A stretch of DNA of 64,000 bases from Psychroflexus salis. GTDB taxonomy: Bacteria; Bacteroidota; Bacteroidia; Flavobacteriales; Flavobacteriaceae. Below are positions 23,982-63,005 of this stretch, in pieces; the stretch's first letter is position 1; every line of letters starts with the position of its first letter. The notes under the pieces are model-generated. The model saw only the letters and a program-made list of their open reading frames with translations. It did no database searches and was not told the DNA's origin. The position numbers were made by a program, and so were the translations under genes. Where the stretch lies: NCBI RefSeq assembly GCF_014640175.1, contig NZ_BMGL01000005.1:62001-126000 (forward strand). Direction: 5' to 3'.

Positions 23982-24050
23982 GTTAATTTGAAAATGTGTT
24001 AATTTGATGATTTGAAGATGGAGTGGTTTGGAAATTTGATGATTTGGGGT

Positions 24051-24106
24051 TGATGATTTTGGATTGATGATTTTGGATTGGTGATTTTGGATTGGTGATT
24101 TATTGC
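24051..24106. repeat. 14-bp tandem repeat, about four units
   Basis: Units of TGATGATTTTGGAT and TGGTGATTTTGGAT follow each other without gaps; the fourth is degenerate. The period equals that of the unrelated array at 41866. Confidence 0.7.
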
Positions 24107-24121
24107 ATTGTTTATATTAAG

Positions 24122-24175
24122 CCCTAATACTCCCTAAGTATCCCCTAAATACATCCCTAGTATGTCCTAAGTATT
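24122..24175. repeat. Five CCCTA iterons at helical spacing
   Basis: CCCTA or CCTA words start at 24122, 24132, 24143, 24155 and 24166, spaced 10, 11, 12 and 11 bases apart, each followed by a variable A/T-rich tail such as AGTAT. The phasing would put them on one DNA face. Confidence 0.5.
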
Positions 24176-24530
24176 GCCATAGAGTTAATGACTTATATTG
24201 TATTGAATTTATGGTGAGTTTTCGTTCTTTTCCTATTTAGGTAGTGTATTAAAAATTGAAATCTCATCTGCAAAGATTTTAGTGATTTTTTTTTCTTCCT
24301 AGAGCGTTTCTTATATGGTTCACGGAAAGTTCGCTAAGGTCTTGGGTTATCTCACAAAGACAAACAAGACTTTGAGTTGAAAATTTTCACGCAAAAGCGC
24401 AAAGACGCAAAAGGCTTTGAATTAAAAGATTTTCGCTATAAGCTGCTAAGGCTAGATAGTTGGTAGTTATTAGTTGGTAGTTCGTAGTTGGTAATTTTTT
24501 TTTGTATTGTTTTAAAACAAATGTATTATC

Positions 24531-36432: not shown

Positions 36433-37812
36433 TTAGTTGTTTGTAAGGTATTGATTAATTAAATGGCTTGATGATACTCGAAGTTCTTTTGGAATAATTC
36501 GTTCACACCAGGTTTGCATATCTTCTTTTGTTTGTTGATGGTATTTACCCAAGTTCATGATAATTTCAGGTAAGTCTTTTTTATCATTCAACCAAATAAC
36601 GGGTGTAAGCTCTCCCATACTTCTAAAATGTTGAAATTTATAAACCCTTTTAATCGACCAATTTGAATTTGGTTTAACTTCATAATTTAAATAGATAGCA
36701 GGTTTATGATGCATGCCAAAATCTAAAGCCATGGTTGAGCCTACATTAATGACAGCATTAGCGTGTTCGCATAAGCTCGATAGTATATTTAAATCTGTTT
36801 CTTTAGGATAAACATCAGACCAATTTGAAGACATCACCCAATCTGCCCCTGTTTTTTTTATAATTTCAGGATATCGATCAATGATCTCTTGATATTTATC
36901 AAAGCCTTCTACAGGTACAGGCCTTAATAAAATTTGCCATTCAGTAGCTAGACCCGAACTGTATATTTCTTCAGCTATATCTTGTAAGTATTCCGGGTCA
37001 AAAGGCGAAGTAGTTTTATCGTCTCCACTAAAGCACAACCATTTTTTATTTAAGTCTAAATCATAAAATTCAGCCAACTTTTCTTTTGTCCATAAATAAG
37101 AGTCGTCATAATGAAACTGAAATTGTGGTGTACCTAGTATTTTTATTTGTTGATCTTTAATTTCAGGATAGTAGGTTGTTAATTCGTCTTTCATATAAGG
37201 ACTCCAAACCAAATATTCATCTGCTCTCAGAGCTAATCTAGCCTTAGGTAAATTATCCCACGAATAGATAGCTGTAAGCGTTTTTATACCTGCATCTTTA
37301 GCTGCAGCAAAAATTGGTGCAGCAATCACAGCACGTTGATGTGTACAAAATAATTTAGTGGGTTGATGCTCTTTAAAATAATTATAATAATATTGATATA
37401 CCTTTGAAGACCTTATAGCTTTTTGATATTGAATTTCTAAATTTTGAATTTGACCTTGAGAAATATAAAACTTCGAGCAGAATTCAACAATAGCATAAAA
37501 TAATTTAAGTTTTAGCGCATTTTTCTTAGGCATATAATTACTCAATATGCTTGAGTTAGTTTTTATTTTGGCATTATACTTTAATCGCACTAAATGGATA
37601 AGTTCACGGTAAAACTTTTCCTGAAAGCTTTCTTTATAGGTTTTTAGTTGTTCCAGTTTTATAGATTCATGTAAACTGAAATCATTAATAGTGTTTGGAT
37701 TAAAATTATGTAGTATTTTAATATCTACATCAAACTTATCAAAGTTACTTGAATATATGTAATTCCTGATTCCTACTCCATCAGGCATGAGTATGTAAAT
37801 CTCACTTTTCAT
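36433..37812 (-). CDS. GT-B-fold glycosyltransferase-like protein
   Basis: The 459-residue protein has a helical N-terminal half and a C-terminal half with KWLCFSGDDKTTSPFDPEYL, QILLRPVPVEGFDKY and ANAVINVGSTMALDFGMHHKPAIYLNY, a pattern of GT-B enzymes related to CDP-glycerol transferases and surface-carbohydrate synthesis proteins. The exact family is not certain. The ATG at 37812 overlaps the 3' end of asnB by 11 bases. It ends just before the glycosyltransferase remnant. Confidence 0.65.
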   Translation of the reverse strand: MKSEIYILMPDGVGIRNYIYSSNFDKFDVDIKILHNFNPNTINDFSLHESIKLEQLKTYKESFQEKFYRELIHLVRLKYNAKIKTNSSILSNYMPKKNALKLKLFYAIVEFCSKFYISQGQIQNLEIQYQKAIRSSKVYQYYYNYFKEHQPTKLFCTHQRAVIAAPIFAAAKDAGIKTLTAIYSWDNLPKARLALRADEYLVWSPYMKDELTTYYPEIKDQQIKILGTPQFQFHYDDSYLWTKEKLAEFYDLDLNKKWLCFSGDDKTTSPFDPEYLQDIAEEIYSSGLATEWQILLRPVPVEGFDKYQEIIDRYPEIIKKTGADWVMSSNWSDVYPKETDLNILSSLCEHANAVINVGSTMALDFGMHHKPAIYLNYEVKPNSNWSIKRVYKFQHFRSMGELTPVIWLNDKKDLPEIIMNLGKYHQQTKEDMQTWCERIIPKELRVSSSHLINQYLTNN

Positions 37813-39520
37813 AATCAATAAATTTACTTACACTTATCCATTGCCATATATGAAAACTTGAGTCTTGTTCTCCTTGTTGATACTTCTTCCATTCTTTTTG
37901 TAGTTGTTGCGTATCAAATAGAACTGCTAAATTACTTTTTTTAATGCTAATTATTGCATTTTCAACCATAGCACTTAGGTCTTCTGCTAGCCATTCACGT
38001 TGTGGTGTTTGTAAAGGTCTTTTAGGAGCAAAAGCCAGATTTTTACTATAATCGCTTAAAATTTCCCGGAGTAAGTATTTGCCTTGATTATTCCTTATTT
38101 TCATTTTTGTAGGTAATGAAAATGCATATTCAACTAAACGGTAATCTAAAAAAGGTTCGCGTAATTCGGTAGTTGATGCCATCGAAACCCGATCATTAAA
38201 GCGTAATGCTCTGGGTATCTTTGTATAAAACAAGTCGCGGTACTGTTTGTTCAATACATCCTCTTCAAAGGGTTTTGGGTATGTTGGTTTTTCAGCTTTA
38301 GTTAAAAAAGTAGTCGCTAAAACATTCGTTTTAAACGGACTTGTATTGGTTTGCCCTTGGATGGTACTATTGGAGTTATTTTGGTAGTAGTCATATCCTG
38401 CCCAGGCTTCATCCATTCCTTGTCCATCTAAAATCACTTTTATACCTTGCTTAGCCATAGTTTCAAATACTTTTGCATACGCGATGGTGGGAATGCCTCC
38501 ATAGGGTTCGTCTTGGATTTTCGCGAGTTGGTAATGACGTTTATTTATTTCCTCTGGTTTTAAAAGCACTTTTTCAAGTTGTGTTTGTGTTTTTAAAACC
38601 ATTTGCTTAACCCAAGGTAATTCATCATAACGTTCATCTTCTGTATAAAAAGTAAATGCTTTGATATTTTTTGCTTCTTCACGTTGATTGACTAAGGCTA
38701 ATAATAAAGATGAGTCTACTCCACCACTTAAGGTAAAACCAACGGGGACATCTGCCCGAAATCGTAAATCAATACTATTTTTAAGCAATTTTTTATACTC
38801 TTCTTTTGCTTCATTTTGACCTATGTTTTGAAGCTCTAGAATTTTTTTATTCGTTCTAGAAACGAAATCATACCATTGTGTAATTTGTAGCTTATTTTTA
38901 TTGTAATTTAAAAAATGCCCCCCAGGTAATTGTTTTATACCTTCATAAAAACTTTCATTAGGCATACCATAACTGCCATAAGCTATGTAATTGGCTAAGA
39001 CCTTTTCGTTAAGTTTTGTATTTACTAATTGCCTTATTGCTTTTATTTCACTCGCAAAAATAAAATTTTCTTCGTCATGGTAATAATATAAAGGCTTTAC
39101 TCCAAAGCGATCACGAGCTGTAAACAATTCTTTGGTTTCTGTATTCAAAAATGCAAAAGCAAACATACCGTTTAACTTTTCTAAACAATTTTCTCCCCAT
39201 ACTAAAAAGGCTTCATAAAGAACTTCTGTATCTGAGTGTGTCACAAAAGTTCGCCCTTTGTTAGCTAATTCACTTTTGATCTCAAGATAATTGTAAATTT
39301 CTCCATTAAATACTAAAATCCATGGATTTCCATTTTTATGAAAGGGTTGATTTGCTCCTTCATTTAAATCAATGATAGAAAGTCTGTTGTGACCTAAAGC
39401 AAGTTTTTCATCAATGAAATGACTTATGTTGTCACTTCCTCGATGAATAATTGCATCAGTCATTAAACTAATGTTTGTTTTAGTGGCTTTAGGGCCTATT
39501 ATGCCGGATATTCCGCACAT
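37802..39520 (-). CDS. asnB: Glutamine-hydrolysing asparagine synthase-like amidotransferase
   Basis: The 572-residue enzyme starts MCGISGIIG, so Cys2 is the amidotransferase nucleophile, and has VFNGEIYNYLEIKSEL in the glutaminase domain and the ATP loop FTLSGGVDSSLLLAL in the synthetase domain. In polysaccharide loci AsnB relatives often amidate uronic or ulosonic acids rather than aspartate; this is an inference from position. The start is 5' of a repeat-packed region, suggesting its own promoter somewhere in 39521-40082. Confidence 0.88.
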   Translation of the reverse strand: MCGISGIIGPKATKTNISLMTDAIIHRGSDNISHFIDEKLALGHNRLSIIDLNEGANQPFHKNGNPWILVFNGEIYNYLEIKSELANKGRTFVTHSDTEVLYEAFLVWGENCLEKLNGMFAFAFLNTETKELFTARDRFGVKPLYYYHDEENFIFASEIKAIRQLVNTKLNEKVLANYIAYGSYGMPNESFYEGIKQLPGGHFLNYNKNKLQITQWYDFVSRTNKKILELQNIGQNEAKEEYKKLLKNSIDLRFRADVPVGFTLSGGVDSSLLLALVNQREEAKNIKAFTFYTEDERYDELPWVKQMVLKTQTQLEKVLLKPEEINKRHYQLAKIQDEPYGGIPTIAYAKVFETMAKQGIKVILDGQGMDEAWAGYDYYQNNSNSTIQGQTNTSPFKTNVLATTFLTKAEKPTYPKPFEEDVLNKQYRDLFYTKIPRALRFNDRVSMASTTELREPFLDYRLVEYAFSLPTKMKIRNNQGKYLLREILSDYSKNLAFAPKRPLQTPQREWLAEDLSAMVENAIISIKKSNLAVLFDTQQLQKEWKKYQQGEQDSSFHIWQWISVSKFIDYEK

Positions 39521-39597
39521 GCTGTTGTTTTGTTAATTTTTTTGTGTCTTCTCGACTTAGCTTGTCTTGAGCTCAGACGAAAGGCTCGAAGCTACTT

Positions 39598-39909
39598 CTC
39601 GACTCCGCTCGAAGCTAAACAAAAATGTTTTATTTAAATTTTGTGTTGTTTTGTATTAGAGAGCATAATCTAACTTTACTTATTATAAACTAGCTAGAAA
39701 CTAAATGATTGTAAATGTTTCAAGTTCGAGCGGAGTCGAGAACAGTTTTTCTTCTCGACTCCGCTCGAAGCTAAACAAAAATGTTTTATTTAAATTTTGT
39801 GTTGTTTTGTATTAGAGAGCATAATCTAACTTTACTTATTATAAACTAGCTAGAAACTAAATGATTGTAAATGTTTCAAGTTCGAGCGGAGTCGAGAACA
39901 GTTTTTCTT
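39598..39909. repeat. Perfect tandem duplication of a 156-bp unit with 16-bp inverted ends
   Basis: Two copies (39598-39753 and 39754-39909) look identical. Each begins CTCGACTCCGCTCGAA and has the inverted partner TTCGAGCGGAGTCGAG 127 bases later (39725-39740 in copy 1). The junction forms an 18-bp hairpin (39725-39742 with 39752-39769, 9-base loop). The interior carries no gene. Confidence 0.9.
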
Positions 39910-40083
39910 CTCGACTCCGCTCGAAGCTAAACAAAAATGTTCTATTTAAACTTTCTGTTTTTTTTACATTAGAAAGTGTAATTTGACTTTTCTCTCTATA
40001 AACTGGCTCGAAGCTACTTCTCGACTCCGCTAGAAGCTAAACAAGATGCCCAATTGTTTCAAGTTCGAGCGAAGTCGAGAACC
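39910..40083. repeat. Diverged third copy of the 156-bp unit, plus a 71-bp 3'-end module
   Basis: The first 45 bases match the tandem units, then the sequence drifts. Its last 71 bases (40013-40083) match 40700-40770 closely and end in GTCGAGAACC, which abuts the stop codon of the GIY-YIG gene. Confidence 0.8.
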
Positions 40084-40397
40084 TATTTTTTATTACTAAA
40101 GTGTGTCTCATTCTTACAAACAGCTAGCTCTTTCAGTTTATCCCAATTTTGATTAATTAAAGCTTCTTTTTTGGCTTTGCTCCACTTTTTAAGTTTACGC
40201 TCAAAAGCATAAGCTTGATTAACATCATTAAAAATTTCACAGAAAACTAATTTTAAAGGTTTCCTTTTGTAAGTATATGAATCTGGATTTTCTTCACTAT
40301 AACAATGCTCTTGCCAACGCCTATTGATATTATTGGTCATTCCTGTGTAATAAGTAGTGTCGGAACATTGAATGATGTAAACATAGTAGGTTTTCAT
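40083..40397 (-). CDS. Small GIY-YIG nuclease domain protein
   Basis: The 104-residue protein is a minimal GIY-YIG domain of the UPF0213/YhbQ group: MKTYYVYIIQCSDTTYYTGM covers both halves of the GIY-YIG motif, NNINRRWQEH holds the catalytic arginine and histidine, and a glutamate in AYAFERKLKKWSKAKKEALI is the metal ligand. I place the start at 40397, because the longer frame is made of repeat sequence. The gene is unrelated to glycan synthesis and is enclosed by 156-bp-family repeats on both sides; its TAG shares a base with the downstream repeat. Confidence 0.88.
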   Translation of the reverse strand: MKTYYVYIIQCSDTTYYTGMTNNINRRWQEHCYSEENPDSYTYKRKPLKLVFCEIFNDVNQAYAFERKLKKWSKAKKEALINQNWDKLKELAVCKNETHFSNKK

Positions 40398-40745
40398 TTT
40401 GATAGTGTGTGAGTGTGTGTTCTCGACTACGCTCGAACCTAAACAGACTCTACTTCGTCTTTGCTCTGTATAAACTACTTCTCGACTTCGCTCGAAACTA
40501 AACAAAAATGTTCTATTTAAATTTTGTGTTGTTTTGTGTTAGAGAGCATAATCTAACTTTACTTATTATAAACTAGCTAGAAACTAAATGATTGTAAATG
40601 TTTCAAGTTCGAGTGGAGTCGAGAACAGTTTTTCTTCTCGACTTCGCTCGAAGATAAACTAAACGGAGCTTGTCCTGAACATTTGATGAAGGGCTCGTTG
40701 CTACTTCTCGACTACGCTCGAAGCTAAACAAGATACCGAATTGTT
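40398..40745. repeat. Repeat block upstream of the GIY-YIG gene with a fourth 156-bp unit
   Basis: A CTCGACTACGCTCGAA word at 40421-40436, a full 156-bp unit at 40481-40636 (stem sequence slightly changed to TTCGAGTGGAGTCGAG), and the first part of the 71-bp module at 40700-40770 fill the gap. A frame at 40603-40791 is made of this repeat and is not a gene. Confidence 0.85.
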
Positions 40746-40770
40746 TCAAGTTCGAGCGAAGTCGAGAACC
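40700..40770. repeat. 71-bp module forming the 3' end of the CMP-sugar synthetase gene
   Basis: This copy matches 40013-40083 at all but a few positions. Bases 40746-40770 are translated on the minus strand as the last residues of the cytidylyltransferase (VLDFART) and its TGA. Confidence 0.8.
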
Positions 40771-41462
40771 ATCTCCTCCGCCTTTTTCCAATCATCCATA
40801 GTATCTATATTAACATATATATCTGGGTTTGATTCGATATAACTCAGTTTTTTACCAAAAAAGCTTCCTTTTTTGATTACTTCTGTTTTAGTGATGTAAA
40901 TGCTTCCATCTCTAAAATAAGCTTTAGGTAGATCTTGTCTGCGTTTTATAATTTGCTTTTCGCCTGTGGATATTTTTAAATTATCATTCTCATCAGTTTC
41001 GAATACCCAATGTGGATTGTATTCATGTGGCACTGGTAAAACGCTTACTAAAGCATCTACATCTGATTGTATAAACTTTTGAATAGCTTGGTCAATGAAA
41101 CCCTTCAATCTAAAAGGCGATGTTACTTGCAACAAAATAACTGCATCAAAATATTCTCCTTGATTTTCAAAAAACTGAATAGCGTTTTGTACAACTCCTA
41201 AACTCCCTGATTGATTTTGTGCTAATTCACTTGGTCGTTGAAAAGGGACATCTAATCCACATGACTTACCAACCTTCATAATTTCTTCGTCTTCAGTAGA
41301 CAAAATTATTTTGCTAATTAAATTTGATGCTAGTGCAGCTTCTGCTGTATAAGCTAATAAAGGTTTTCCGCCAAGTTCCTTGATGTTTTTTCTAGGAACT
41401 CCTTTGCTTCCACCACGGGCGGGAATTATTGCGAGGATTTTAGTTCTTGGTTGCTGGTTCAT
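40746..41462 (-). CDS. neuA: CMP-nonulosonic acid synthetase (acylneuraminate cytidylyltransferase)
   Basis: The 238-residue enzyme activates a sialic-acid-like sugar with CTP. It has the CTP loop ILAIIPARGGSKGVPRKNIK, LQVTSPFRL and the C-terminal NIDTMDDWKKAE. By position it would supply CMP-sugar to the glycan, possibly as LegF for legionaminic acid. The final residues VLDFART and the stop lie inside a repeat also found after the GIY-YIG gene, so the natural C-terminus was probably replaced. The start lies next to a G/T-rich tract. Confidence 0.88.
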   Translation of the reverse strand: MNQQPRTKILAIIPARGGSKGVPRKNIKELGGKPLLAYTAEAALASNLISKIILSTEDEEIMKVGKSCGLDVPFQRPSELAQNQSGSLGVVQNAIQFFENQGEYFDAVILLQVTSPFRLKGFIDQAIQKFIQSDVDALVSVLPVPHEYNPHWVFETDENDNLKISTGEKQIIKRRQDLPKAYFRDGSIYITKTEVIKKGSFFGKKLSYIESNPDIYVNIDTMDDWKKAEEMVLDFART

Positions 41463-41512
41463 TGTTGGTCGTTGTTGGTTGCTGGTTGCTAGTTCATGGT
41501 TGTTGGTTGAGT
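41463..41512. repeat. G/T-rich tract next to the neuA start
   Basis: GTTGGTTGCTGG-type words fill the 50 bases between the four-helix-bundle gene and the neuA ATG. They resemble the 14-bp array on the other side of that gene. Confidence 0.7.
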
Positions 41513-41860
41513 CTAAAATTTTGTTTTCAAATAACGCTTTAGACCGTTTAAAAGTTTTTTAAGCTGTGTTATCTCTTCTAATATACTATCACTTTTCAAA
41601 TATCCTAAGCGAATTGATATAAGGACTTGTGTTTCTAATTCAACAGTTGAACCATAAGCTATTTCAATAAACCGATAATAGTCTTTAAAAGAATTTCTAG
41701 AAGATCCTTCTGCAATATTTGAAACAATTGAAACAGCTGATCTCCTCATTTGAGAAACTAATCCATATATTTCTTCACTAGGATACGATTTCGTTTCATC
41801 ATAAATCAAACTCACTAATTCAAAACCGTGTTTCCAAGCATCTAGTTTTTTATAATCCAT
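41513..41860 (-). CDS. Four-helix-bundle protein of the S23/IVS family
   Basis: The 115-residue protein MDYKKLDAWKHGFELVSLIY... with EIYGLVSQMRRSAVSIVSNI and AEGSSRNSFKDYYRFIEIA is typical of the family first seen in 23S rRNA intervening sequences and related to the Avd accessory protein of diversity-generating retroelements. Its activity is not known beyond nucleic-acid binding by relatives. It lies between neuC and neuA, bounded by G/T-rich repeats on both sides, and so appears to be inserted into a sugar-acid operon. No reverse transcriptase or variable repeat was seen. Confidence 0.9.
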   Translation of the reverse strand: MDYKKLDAWKHGFELVSLIYDETKSYPSEEIYGLVSQMRRSAVSIVSNIAEGSSRNSFKDYYRFIEIAYGSTVELETQVLISIRLGYLKSDSILEEITQLKKLLNGLKRYLKTKF

Positions 41861-41865
41861 TTTTT

Positions 41866-41949
41866 GGTTGTTCGTTGCTGGTTGTTCGTTGCTGGTTGTT
41901 CGTTGCTGGTTGTTCGTTGCTGGTTGTTCGTTGCTGGTTGCTTGTTGCT
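41866..41949. repeat. 14-bp tandem array directly upstream of the four-helix-bundle gene
   Basis: Five perfect units GGTTGTTCGTTGCT and one variant (GGTTGCTTGTTGCT) follow each other, then shorter GTTGTTC units run to about 41990. The array starts 6 bases from the ATG, so the message would begin with C/A-rich repeats such as AGCAACGAACAACC. Confidence 0.92.
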
Positions 41950-41990
41950 GGTTGTTTGTTTTTCGTTGTTCGTTGTTCGTTGTTCGTTTT

Positions 41991-42187
41991 TATTTTTATT
42001 TTATTGACTATGAAATTAGTACGCGAAAAAAAATAAATACTCTAAAATTCATTGATTTTTTCCCCAACCCTAAAGGGAGAAATCAAGGAAAATAAGGCTT
42101 CCTCTAGGGTTGGGGCAGAACTGATTTGACGTGTTTCAATTTTTGTCGTGTACTTTATACTATGAACTATCAACGAACAACCAAAAA
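41991..42187. other. Intergenic DNA with a 16-bp inverted repeat
   Basis: The only feature in this part of the 327-base gap is CCCCAACCCTAAAGGG (42062-42077) facing CCTCTAGGGTTGGGG (about 42101-42115), an imperfect hairpin of REP type or a terminator for neuC. A short C/A-rich run lies near 42170. Confidence 0.5.
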
Positions 42188-43342
42188 CTAATACACTATC
42201 GTCTTATGAAACTTCAATTCAACCTTTGCTAAAACGGCAGCTATCTTTTCTCCTGCATCGCCTTCTCCGTAAATAGTGGCTGGTGTGGGTCTTGGGTTGG
42301 TTTGAATTTGGTTCATGGCTTGGGTGATTTCTTGAGTACTATAATTGACATCCATAACATTTTTACCGCGTTGGCGGCGATTTTGTCGACTTCCGATATT
42401 AATAACCGGGACACCAAGATAAGCGCACTCGCGTATGCCCACCGAAGAGTTGCCGATTAAGCCAATAGATTGGTCTAATAGATTTAAAAAATCATTCCCT
42501 TGCATATTTTTAAAGAAATGAACATGACTTAAATCGTATTTTTCTCTGTAAGCTCGAATACCGGTAGATGTGCCATCGGAGCCTGCATCTACATTGGGCC
42601 AAAACCATAAAACAGGAACCTCGGTTTGTTGGCGAATGGCTTCTAAAGTAGTTTCTACATGCTTTCGCGAGTTTTGATATTCGTTAGTAACGGGATGTTG
42701 CATGACCACCCAATAGCAGTTGCTTAAATCAGGTTGCGCGCCCACGCCACCATATTTTTCATAGGGGTTAAAATTCAGTTGGTTGAGTCCCTGAACTTCT
42801 TTGGCTAAATCTATGGATGGGCAGCCTGTATTAAAAACCGAAGTAGGTTCTTCTCCTAATTTTAAGACGCGTTGTTCTGCATCTTGTGAAGCGACCAAAT
42901 GGTAATCGGCTAGTTTGGTAATGCTGTGTCTTACTTTTTCATCGATATTGCCTGTGACCTCTCCGCCTTGAATGTGGGCTAAAGGAATGTTCATGTACGA
43001 AGCGGCAATGGCCGTTGCCATGGTTTCAAAACGATCGGCGACGGTTACCACAATATCGGGTTGAAGATTCTCAAACACACTCGAAAGTTCTAAAATACCG
43101 ATACCCGTTGTTTTAGCTGCTGCGGTTAAATTTTCACCTTCCAACACATTAAATACCTTAGCAACGATATGAAAACCATCCGCTTTAATATAATTGACTG
43201 CCGTTCCGTAGCGTTCTAATAAAGCTGAAGCCGCTACCACCAATTGTAACTCCAAATTAGGATGCTCTTGGATAGCTTTTAAAGCGGTTTTTATTCTGGA
43301 ATAGGAAGGGCGTGCTGTAATGACGACGCAGATTTTTCTCAT
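42188..43342 (-). CDS. neuC: Hydrolysing NDP-sugar 2-epimerase (NeuC/LegG type)
   Basis: The 384-residue enzyme removes the nucleotide from an NDP-HexNAc derivative while inverting C2, giving the ManNAc-type precursor of a nonulosonic acid. It has ICVVITARPSYSRIKTAL at the start, VVTVADRFETMATAIAASYM, AHIQGGEVTGNIDEKVRHSI and IGNSSVGIRECAYLGVPVIN, all typical of this family. With PtmE, LegB and LegC in the locus, a legionaminic-type substrate is likelier than plain GlcNAc. The stop is followed by repeat-rich DNA before the four-helix gene. Confidence 0.9.
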   Translation of the reverse strand: MRKICVVITARPSYSRIKTALKAIQEHPNLELQLVVAASALLERYGTAVNYIKADGFHIVAKVFNVLEGENLTAAAKTTGIGILELSSVFENLQPDIVVTVADRFETMATAIAASYMNIPLAHIQGGEVTGNIDEKVRHSITKLADYHLVASQDAEQRVLKLGEEPTSVFNTGCPSIDLAKEVQGLNQLNFNPYEKYGGVGAQPDLSNCYWVVMQHPVTNEYQNSRKHVETTLEAIRQQTEVPVLWFWPNVDAGSDGTSTGIRAYREKYDLSHVHFFKNMQGNDFLNLLDQSIGLIGNSSVGIRECAYLGVPVINIGSRQNRRQRGKNVMDVNYSTQEITQAMNQIQTNPRPTPATIYGEGDAGEKIAAVLAKVELKFHKTIVY

Positions 43343-46692: not shown

Positions 46693-46760
46693 AATGTTAC
46701 GACGTGTTTAGTTGTCGGTTTTTGGTTGTCAGTTTTCGGTTGGCTGTTGTCAGTTTTTGT

Positions 46761-46860
46761 CCCGAATCGCATTGCTCTCGGGATTAATTCCCTAAGCTAT
46801 CTAAATAGATAGATAGACAGGGCAGGCGATTACGCAATTATAAATTGCTATCTAATTGAA
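46761..46860. repeat. About 100-bp dispersed repeat, copy 2
   Basis: Starts with a CCCGA...TCGGG hairpin (GAATCGCATTGCTC loop region), then GGATTAATTCCC, and ends with GGCAGGCGATTACGCAATT and AATTGC. Copies are at 29524 and 47005. Confidence 0.85.
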
Positions 46861-47004
46861 TCTGTCTTCTGTGAACTGTGACTTGTGATTGGTGAACCGC
46901 TATTCTTGTTGTAAAAGTTATGGCGTTCATAAACTCACTGTTGTGGCGCTGCGCTGTTTTCAGTTGTCGGTTTTCGGTTTTCGGTTGTCTGTTTTCTGTA
47001 TTTG

Positions 47005-61617: not shown

Positions 61618-61686
61618 GTTGTTAGTTGGTAGCTGTTAGTTGGTAGTTTTTGGTTTTTAGTTTGTAGCAGTTGATTGTAAGCCTTT
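61618..61686. repeat. G/T-rich tract next to the wzm start
   Basis: GTTGTTAGTTGGTAGCTG-type words begin about 13 bases upstream of the wzm ATG and continue for 70 bases into repeat copy A. Confidence 0.7.
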
Positions 61687-61980
61687 GGTCGTTAGTTATT
61701 AGCTAATAATTTTAAATTCATAAATCTTGATTCTAAAATCTAATATCTCAATTCTTAAATCTAATTTCTAAGCTGATAAATTTAAAGATTTGAATTGTTT
61801 CCTCCCTTGCTTGTGCTGAGTTAAACCAAAGTAAGGGAGTCCCGATAATTATCGGGAAAGGTTGGTGTTTAGTTTAGTGAGTTATTTTTCTTACAATTCA
61901 AATCAAGTTTGCTTTAAGTCCTGGCTTTGATTCATGAGATTCCGTATAAATTTCTTGGGAAATTTTACGGAATGACAGTT
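61687..61980. repeat. About 294-bp direct repeat copy A flanking the toxin-antitoxin pair
   Basis: Copy A contains, in order, GATTCTAAAATCTAATATCT, a CTCCCTT...AAGGGAG outer stem with the perfect palindrome CCCGATAATTATCGGG (61841-61856), GTGTTTAGTTTAGTGA, and the GATTCCGTATAAATTT hairpin (61935-61976). Copy B at 62624-63005 has the same order. It starts beside the wzm ATG and ends 26 bases before the toxin stop. Confidence 0.88.
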
Positions 61981-62006
61981 CTATTTGAACTTCTACCAGG
62001 TGATTT

Positions 62007-62327
62007 TTAATTCAGTTTCAGCAAACTGATTAAGGAATTATTTAAATCTGCTATTTCCGCATGTTTTAATTCTCCTAGTTTCCCAATGGCTAAATTTTTA
62101 TTTAAGGTAACTATTTTCCCAACTCGGATGAGTGAATTCATTTTTAGACCATTCAATTCTGTAGGTTTAATAATCATGTCATGATTAGTTTTCCACTTTA
62201 ATTGAGTTGTCATGAAACTTACCGTTATGTCATCTTTAGCTTCCACTAAAATTACTGCTGGTCGTTTTTTAATTCCAGATAAATCAGTAAACGGAAATGG
62301 TATGAGTACAATATCTCCTTTTTTCAC
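62007..62327 (-). CDS. MazF/PemK-family endoribonuclease toxin
   Basis: The 106-residue toxin has MKKGDIVLIPFPFTDLSGIK, KRPAVILVEAKDDITVSFMT and a C-terminal IGKLGELKHAEIADLNNSLI, matching PemK/MazF-type mRNA interferases. The start is a GTG at 62327 overlapping the antitoxin stop (GTGA), a classic toxin-antitoxin arrangement. It is not related to glycan synthesis and lies between repeat copies A and B. Confidence 0.88.
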   Translation of the reverse strand: MKKGDIVLIPFPFTDLSGIKKRPAVILVEAKDDITVSFMTTQLKWKTNHDMIIKPTELNGLKMNSLIRVGKIVTLNKNLAIGKLGELKHAEIADLNNSLISLLKLN

Positions 62328-62551
62328 TTAAAACGTTCTTTTAAATCTGATTCATCATACAAGTCATCGTCATCGGCTAAAAAGTCGAATGTCTTAGCAT
62401 CTGTAGCTAATTGCTCAATATTTTTCTGTACTATCTGATTATCTAGCTTGCTCAGTAAGTATTCAACATAATCACTGACATCTTTAAGTTTATTCTCAGG
62501 CAAATACTGTAAATTTTGAGTAGCTTGTTGTATTAATTTTTCTCGATTCAT
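62324..62551 (-). CDS. Antitoxin partner of the MazF-type toxin
   Basis: The 75-residue protein MNREKLIQQATQNLQYLPEN has an N-terminal helical region predicted to dimerise or bind DNA and an acidic tail (FDFLADDDDLYDESDLKERF) that should bind the toxin. Position directly upstream and overlapping the toxin identifies it. The family is not certain from sequence alone. Confidence 0.78.
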   Translation of the reverse strand: MNREKLIQQATQNLQYLPENKLKDVSDYVEYLLSKLDNQIVQKNIEQLATDAKTFDFLADDDDLYDESDLKERFK

Positions 62552-62566
62552 TATGCTAGGATTTAG

Positions 62567-62623
62567 TTGTTAGCTGTTAGCTGGTAGCTGTTAGCCTGTA
62601 GTTGTTAGTTGGTAATTTTAGTT
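62567..62623. repeat. G/T-rich tract next to the antitoxin start
   Basis: TTAGTTGTTAGCTGTTAGCT-type words lie 15-70 bases upstream of the ATG at 62551 and resemble the tract next to wzm. Confidence 0.7.
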
Positions 62624-63005
62624 GGTCGTTAGCTAGTCATTTTAAATTCTTAAATCTTGATTCTAAAATCTAATATCTCAATTCTTAAATCTTATTTCTA
62701 AGCTGATAACTTTAAAGATTTGAATTATTTCCTCCCTTGCTTGTGCTGAGTTAAACCGAAGTAAGGGAGTCCCGATAATTATCGGGAAAGGTGGGTGTTT
62801 AGCTTAGTAAATTATTTTTTATTCTGATTAATTAGACACTGAAACAAGCCTGTCTGACGGCAAAGGCAGGTTCAGTGTGACAGGTTTAATCAGTGTTTAG
62901 CTTAGTGAATTATTTTTTATAATTAAAATTAAGTTTGCGATAAGTCTTGACTTTGATTCATAAGATTCCGCATAAACTTCTTTGAAATTTTACGGAATGA
63001 CAGTT
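62624..63005. repeat. Direct repeat copy B with a 98-bp internal insertion
   Basis: Copy B follows copy A in order, including the palindrome CCCGATAATTATCGGG (62771-62786) and the GATTCCGCATAAACTT hairpin (62962-63001). It is longer because a 98-bp segment is inserted at 62823-62892, flanked by a 28-bp direct repeat. It ends 9 bases before the epimerase stop. Confidence 0.88.
62795..62920. repeat. Insertion flanked by 28-bp direct repeats inside copy B
   Basis: GTGTTTAGCTTAGTAAATTA... at 62795-62822 recurs at 62893-62920 with one change (G for A). Between them lies a 70-base segment with an inverted repeat (CACTGAA facing TTCAGTG, and GCCT facing AGGC). The same inner word occurs inverted at 13577-13599. 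Confidence 0.75.

Follow-up and report, generated by a model that had tools for sequence, protein, structure and literature searches.

The junction between two genes of Psychroflexus salis, a member of the Flavobacteriaceae, raises the question of whether a small GIY-YIG nuclease gene and the palindromes which enclose it constitute a nuclease-repeat system comparable to that of the RAYT transposases and their REPs, as the preliminary description of this DNA had proposed. The window, i.e., the whole stretch of 64,000 nucleotides that was analysed, belongs to contig C5, in a genome of 2.87 Mb. The block of interest separates two open reading frames (ORFs) which we take, from their sequences, to be an asparagine synthetase-like (asnB) and a CMP-sugar synthetase-like (neuA) gene, and it contains the following features:

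39539 to 40769, no strand: whole block of REPs and gene, at the asnB/neuA junction
39595 to 39621, minus strand: REP (sequence reading and pattern match)
39716 to 39743, plus strand: REP (sequence reading)
39716 to 39777, no strand: REPIN-like dimer, tags outward, folding at -24 kcal/mol (z -8.16)
39751 to 39777, minus strand: REP (sequence reading and pattern match)
39872 to 39933, no strand: REPIN-like dimer at the second, identical junction (sequence reading)
40017 to 40043, minus strand: degenerate REP with a TAGC core (sequence reading and pattern match)
40055 to 40082, plus strand: REP 3' of the gene, abutting its stop codon, tag TGTTTCAA directed away from the gene
40083 to 40397, minus strand: GIY-YIG nuclease gene, 104 amino acids, predicted UPF0213-like fold (PF01541, E 4e-17)
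40419 to 40445, minus strand: REP 5' of the gene, tag TGTTTAG directed away from the gene
40478 to 40504, minus strand: REP (sequence reading and pattern match)
40599 to 40660, no strand: REPIN-like dimer, diverged (sequence reading)
40704 to 40730, minus strand: REP (sequence reading and pattern match)
40742 to 40769, plus strand: REP which also codes for the final residues (...VLDFART) of the neuA-like ORF

The neuA-like ORF (40746-41462, minus strand) ends within the last REP, and REP-derived C-termini, e.g., SSTSSG and PSTSSG, also close several of the GIY-YIG relatives discussed below. Another ORF of 115 amino acids (41513-41860, minus strand), which may resemble the four-helix proteins inserted in 23S rRNA genes, adjoins the block. 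Intergenic DNA of the sugar gene cluster contains short tandem repeats whose periods are 7, 14 or 21 bp (24001-24493, 41443-41988, 46707-46996 and 61620-62699). No Rfam family matched positions 37000-43000 of the window at gathering thresholds.

The repeats had been described as 156-bp units, and most elements of that description were recovered, namely two identical tandem units (39595-39750 and 39751-39906), a diverged and partial third unit (39907-40016, 83%), a 16-mer starting at 39598 with its inverted partner starting 127 bases further on, at 39725, a junction hairpin with perfect inverted arms of 18 nt separated by 9 nt, and the 104-residue GIY-YIG gene among the repeats. The fourth copy, previously called full, is present (40478-40633) and differs at 5 of its 156 bases. 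What did not hold is the 156-bp period as the unit: of the 17 BLAST matches of the 156-base sequence in the genome, those outside the block comprise the REP ends only. The 156-bp unit was accordingly rejected as an element, and consists of REP dimers plus spacer; the working unit is a tagged REP of about 28 nt, along with the dimer of about 62 nt that two such REPs form facing outward. A chance origin of these repeats is excluded because the REP pattern, with up to two mismatches, matches 8 times in the window versus a mean of 0.00 in 100 shuffles, and the 16-mer, at the same tolerance, 35 times genome-wide versus 0 for the reversed control.

Each REP of the window is an imperfect hairpin of about 28 nt in which a tag (TGTTTAG or TGTTTCAA) is followed by a 4-nt stem, then GAG, a loop of 5-6 nt, CGA and the complementary 4 nt. 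Two REPs placed about 27 nt apart with their tags outward give the REPIN-like dimer of about 62 nt, and the closest brackets of the gene are the single REPs at 40055-40082 and 40419-40445. The conserved GAG..CGA would place two G-A mismatches in the stem. With DNA parameters, single GAG..CGA REPs folded no better than their shuffles (z -0.07, 0.27, -0.05 and 0.35), possibly because the scoring gives no credit to tandem G-A mismatches. Beyond the block, a REP core of the window kind was found at 12 of 13 other genomic places inspected, and outward dimers, six in total, occur at four of the 13. None of the eight PF01541 matches of the genome lies at an inspected place of dispersed REPs, the nearest pair being 2.9 kb apart on contig C2. 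The genome also harbours one Y1_Tnp gene (C6:94905-95249), 4.9 kb from a dispersed REP (C6:100166).

PF01541 is the sole Pfam family matching the window protein, and NCBIfam gave no family for the three proteins searched. The AF2 model (pLDDT 89.0) best resembles the UPF0213 structures 1zg2 and 1ywl in Foldseek (E 8.6e-6 and 3.8e-4), followed by Slx1 chains and HIGLE (E 8e-3 to 7e-2), Slx1 being a branched-DNA nuclease according to the titles of the matched structures. Because of these fold matches, the modelled protein is plausibly an active, structure-reading nuclease. Residues Y7, Y17, G19, H31 and E66 are invariant over 60 aligned rows and R27 is conserved in at least 90%, residues of the GIY-YIG catalytic site being among them. 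The gene is usually present in low copy number (1-8 matches per genome), as RAYT genes are. Two other GIY-YIG genes of the same subfamily in the P. salis genome (L001 and L002) lie in or abut palindromes which, judged by eye, follow the GAG..CGA plan with another sequence, and none of the other five PF01541 genes of this genome has a REP within 300 bp.

At least 516 relatives in 587 stretches were detected by scanning genome contigs, and the best 80 loci, all of them from Bacteroidota, were kept. Using a generalised REP detector ([CT][GC]TCA-N4-GAG..CGA-N4'), 193 REPs were found in the 47.0 kb lying within 300 bp of the genes versus 32 in the 625 kb lying more than 1.5 kb away, an 80-fold higher density, and three altered-pattern controls gave 0 everywhere in the 80 loci. 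A REP occurs within 300 bp of the gene in 69 of the 80 loci, so that the gene is not, as a refutation of the proposal would have it, mostly devoid of linked palindromes; an outward pair is present in 40 loci, and this detector found no REP in 11. A narrower motif gave 108 matches in 77.8 kb near the genes versus 9 in 625 kb far from them, with 36 of 80 loci represented, and in 49 of the 80 loci the best inverted repeat surrounding the gene scored above the 99th percentile of 948 control positions. As negative controls, eight GIY-YIG genes of other subfamilies were examined, and none has a REP within 300 bp. Within 130 bp of the gene, tags point outward in 53 and 50 cases versus inward in 10 and 18. 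Including the window locus, 67 of 81 loci contain the core GAGC-N2-3-GTCGA within 700 bp, with 222 copies altogether, the tag being exactly TGTCA in 147 of them. Among these non-independent copies, the four stem positions form Watson-Crick pairs in 212, 210, 206 and 185 cases versus 133, 120, 57 and 78 expected, and pairing stops at position 5 (92 versus 88 expected). Depending on the locus, the loop has 2-3 nt between C and GT, takes the form GAG-5-CGA (L045, L078) or encloses a second hairpin (L053, L069, L072, L076).

The type of REP follows the type of protein. On the protein tree, a single quick tree of 106 columns in which 34 of 77 inner forks stayed open and from which an over-long and a truncated frame (L086 and L038) were omitted, the stem type (44 CT and 14 TC, five loci with CC or TT stems set aside) changes twice, versus at least 9 times in 300 shuffles (mean 12.6), and the loop length (47 and 15 loci) also changes twice, versus at least 9 times (mean 13.7). 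The match is not merely a consequence of host descent, because Flavobacterium loci split by type, three (L020, L035, L068) having TC REPs and proteins that group with TC proteins and six (L011, L012, L015, L017, L026, L034) having CT REPs and proteins of another clade, and because one Flavivirga genome contains two genes (L043, L059) with two REP types. Another genome likewise possesses two gene types (L030 and L038), and its REP type differs with the protein clade. The closest relative among the best 80 of at least 516, from Psychroflexus halocasei (L009, 73% identity), is the sister of the window protein (SH-aLRT 99) and shares its odd TGTTT tag; the protein of another Psychroflexus (L040) belongs to another clade and is accompanied by the tag TGTCA. 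The pairing of REP and gene is thus well supported.

The number of repeats was also expected to track the presence of the gene. The motif TGTCANNNNGAGCN{2,3}GTCGA was counted in 149 genomes of the family, relatives reaching at least E 1e-22 being taken as close-subfamily genes and absence being defined as no match at E 1e-10. This TGTCA-type motif occurs in 86 of the 149 genomes (reversed control 0 among the columns listed), and 806 of its 1004 copies belong to the 53 genomes with a close-subfamily gene. Far from being equally abundant in genomes lacking the gene, the repeats have a median of 10 in these 53 genomes, 1 in the 43 with distant relatives only and 0 in the 53 with none. In 18 of the 149 genomes, four or more motifs occur although the close-subfamily gene is missing; five of these 18 lack any relative at 1e-10. 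Conversely, seven of the 53 genomes with a close-subfamily gene have no TGTCA motif, and the P. salis genome counts among them because its REPs bear another tag.

Within the genus (27 genomes), the window-type REP has a median of 10 in the ten genomes with a gene match at E 1e-30 versus 1 in the 17 others (p 7e-4), and nine of these ten have a REP within 100 bp of the gene among the places listed. Of the 17 others, eight have no window-type REP and four carry 7 to 11. Once the copies near the gene are removed, the excess of dispersed REPs in the genus is not significant (p 0.13, the dispersed copies of G173 being taken as 0 among the matches listed). Five of the nine congener gene loci were scored for REPs, the others (L142-L145) yielding no intact frame in the automated reading. 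Broken relatives of the gene occur at G163:C12:473473-473703 and G160:C31:234849-235110, and REPs may outlive a decayed gene. In two congeners (G169:C9:145006-146643 and G173:C1, around 2742209), window-type genes stand in long arrays of REPs of the same orientation (at least 24 in G169), an arrangement that differs from the window's dimers.

Sites lacking the block exist in sister genomes. In five congeners (G167, G170, G152, G171 and G172), the genes flanking the window's asnB/neuA junction are 67-190 bp apart versus 1,250 bp in the window, and the block is absent; one of the five, G172, has a single REP-like element of another type at this site. Gene and REPs are both present at the site in G159. 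This comparison covers six of the eight genomes with both flanks on one contig, G160 and G002 having been set aside. A similar situation prevails in Azospirillum lipoferum 4B, in which a block made of a REP dimer, the gene and a second REP dimer separates sufB from sufC by 617 bp, versus gaps of 91, 87 and 129 bp, devoid of the block, in A. ramasamyi, A. oryzae and Azospirillum sp. B510. In both Azospirillum (L098), where it stands between sufB and sufC, and Shinella (L105), the GIY-YIG gene immediately precedes a sufC-like gene, perhaps an independent use of one site.

Outside the Bacteroidota, GIY-YIG genes of Alpha-, Beta- and Gammaproteobacteria and of one cyanobacterium were found to have hairpins with a CGTC, TGTC or CCTC tag on both sides. 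The sample was drawn from a plasmid collection in which some records are chromosome-sized, and comprised 7 of 11 plus 13 of 32 records, from different organisms, picked before their flanks were seen. An untuned detector of head plus stem found 41 hairpins in 10.2 kb near the genes versus 68 in 67.4 kb far from them (4.0-fold, 14 of 17 loci), and three control heads gave 0.9-1.0-fold. A strict detector, tuned after the flanks had been read, gave 46 near versus 17 far (18-fold), with REPs within 300 bp in 16 of 17 loci, or 16 of 20 when the three Bacillota loci used as controls (L093, from Clostridia, L113 and L114) are included. Proteobacterial loci such as L094-L099 and L102 display a CGTC or CCTC tag, an 8-bp stem and a TCC(A) tail. 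Protein type and REP class are not related one-to-one, because L091 and L092 combine a Proteobacterial-like protein type with GAG..CGA hairpins. The cyanobacterial locus (L092, 3001-6195) lies between genes for an MmeI-type restriction enzyme and a DISARM helicase.

These hairpins recall a superfamily of REPs which, in the available parts of a 2013 survey by Di Nocera, "apparently lack a dedicated transposase" (PMC3733652). As described there, the CGTC superfamily, whose tag is often TGTC or CCTC, occurs in Bacteroidetes and Proteobacteria, with carriers such as Azospirillum lipoferum, Sinorhizobium meliloti, Novosphingobium aromaticivorans and Neisseria, and its units have a stem of 8-9 bp, a loop of 4-5 nt and a CCA tail and form dimers, predominantly of the HH type (PMC3733652). 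The same parts of the survey report no case of CGTC units on either side of a tyrosine transposase gene, and propose that the missing enzyme became extinct or that other transposases are used (PMC3733652). We infer from tag, stem length and tail that the Proteobacterial hairpins found here are those of Figure 2 of that survey. The Bacteroidota and Proteobacteria relatives agree with the superfamily in the CGTC tag, or its TGTC and CCTC variants, and in the dimers, but the window's own tag is TGTTTnA, and the Bacteroidota REPs have a 4-bp stem with GAG..CGA and no CCA tail. The survey examined transposase genes and, in counting genes carrying REPs, excluded hypothetical proteins of less than 120 amino acids (PMC3733652), an approach which, as far as these parts of it show, would probably have overlooked small GIY-YIG genes. 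The open PMC literature, subscription papers and preprints lying outside this scope, yielded no paper linking GIY-YIG proteins with REPs or palindromes and no match to six exact REP core strings, and the GIY-YIG/REP pairing is provisionally regarded as novel. Both kinds of term did co-occur in a phage genome paper and in a Moraxella study, the mentions in the latter being unrelated.

Taken together, the locus is probably a GIY-YIG "REPtron", i.e., a gene bracketed by its cognate outward REPs and coding for a RAYT-like REP nuclease. The gene could instead be a homing-type passenger which inserts in REPs, as some insertion sequences do, the REPs being spread by other means. Its position between two outward REPs, as if inserted into a REP dimer, is what such a passenger would show, REPs do occur in some genomes without the gene, and a restriction to REP-bearing genomes would also yield co-occurrence. 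This reading is nevertheless improbable, given that the REP type shifts with the protein clade, even within one genome (L043/L059 and L030/L038), that few REP-rich genomes lack any relative at 1e-10 (5 of 53), and that no other enzyme is apparent. The most obvious alternative enzyme, a Y1/RAYT-type transposase to which the GIY-YIG link would be secondary, finds some support in the Y1_Tnp gene situated 4.9 kb from a dispersed REP, yet it is hardly credible: among family genomes, the median number of REPs is 11 without Y1 (n=28) and 9 with it (n=25) when a close GIY-YIG gene is present, and 0 with or without Y1 (n=62 and 34) when it is absent. The effect of the GIY-YIG gene thus persists both in genomes with Y1 transposases (p 2e-5) and in those lacking them (p 8e-9), and Y1 by itself shows no effect (p 0.56 and 0.40), to which the lack of a reported tyrosine transposase gene flanked by CGTC units in the available parts of the survey may be added (PMC3733652). 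Y1/RAYT transposases were rejected as the sole explanation, REP number following the GIY-YIG gene and not Y1.

It is equally unlikely, as in the case of the passenger, that the nuclease has been domesticated by the host and trims or resolves REP hairpins or cruciforms, or regulates genes, without mobilising anything. The fold neighbours of the Slx1 type, which by the titles of their structures act on branched DNA, and the low copy number, which is also that of RAYTs, would suit such a function; the patchy presence at one site among congeners would not, and the broken copies in the genus (G163, G160) suggest that the gene plays no essential role. A mere coincidence, in which small mobile genes gather in repeat-rich intergenic DNA, deserves hardly any credence: gene and REPs are both intergenic, but the 80-fold local enrichment, the zero controls, the outward orientation, the matching of types and the GIY-YIG genes of other subfamilies lying without REPs in the same genome all speak against it, and chance or a hot spot was rejected on the linkage over 80 loci (193 near versus 32 far, controls 0).

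Returning to the GIY-YIG REPtron, the protein would recognise the tag, which is YGTCA in most relatives and TGTTTnA in the genus, and the folded hairpin NNNN-GAG..CGA-N'N'N'N' in single-stranded or cruciform DNA and cut at or near the tag, after which repair or replication would copy the REP pair, or the REP-gene-REP assembly, into new intergenic sites; the dispersed REP dimers would be the non-autonomous offspring of the gene-bearing REPtron. Since DNA cleavage by GIY-YIG enzymes is hydrolytic and passes through no covalent intermediate, the spread would rely on the host's repair to copy the element that has been cut. By analogy with TnpA-REP, the marks that are read would likely be the unpaired tag and the conserved GAG..CGA mismatches: in the available parts of the corresponding study, TnpA-REP reads the unpaired tag and a mismatch bulge in the folded single-stranded REP, and the conserved mismatch bulge of E. 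coli REPs is required for activity (PMC8266576). Of the system first suggested, linkage, type matching and co-occurrence have thus been observed, the first two being strong and pan-bacterial, as have the anatomy of the locus and the variable presence of the block at one site, whereas recognition, cutting and mobilisation of the palindromes by the protein are what we infer from the RAYT parallel.

With respect to known systems, the locus resembles the REP/RAYT elements (TnpA-REP, group 2/3 REPtrons) in its small nuclease gene bracketed by tagged REPs, its imperfect hairpins with conserved mismatches beside an unpaired tag and its dispersed REPIN-like dimers. It is not a member of that group, because both the enzyme, of the GIY-YIG type (PF01541) instead of the Y1 HUH transposase (PF01797) of RAYTs, and the tag, YGTCA or TGTTTnA instead of GTAG, differ. 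UPF0213/YazA-type proteins (1zg2, 1ywl) share the fold and the domain, but the Bacillus subtilis yazA and the Radiobacillus copy occur without REPs in the conserved order trmNF-yazA-rsmI. Slx1 and the GIY-YIG homing endonucleases share the catalytic fold, whereas the window gene has no intron or partner subunit and is linked to short tagged palindromes. Like MITEs, the REPs are short, non-coding and dispersed, with inverted ends.

REPs are among the commonest bacterial repeats, and a partner enzyme is known for their GTAG superfamily, whereas none had been found for CGTC/TGTC in what is available of the 2013 survey (PMC3733652). The chances are about even that the whole CGTC/TGTC/CCTC superfamily in Bacteroidota, Proteobacteria and Cyanobacteria has its dedicated enzymes in the GIY-YIG nucleases, and a small, expressible candidate makes the question of the CGTC/TGTC partner directly testable. 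If the proposed reading is true, the locus would represent another kind of REP-nuclease element, the second to be known and of independent evolutionary origin, and the first in which the reading of tagged DNA hairpins and the spreading of non-autonomous palindromes fall to a GIY-YIG enzyme alone, and a function would be provided for many small genes annotated as "GIY-YIG nuclease family". In this respect, bacterial palindromic repeats form two great families, and the partner that one of them lacks may be this protein.
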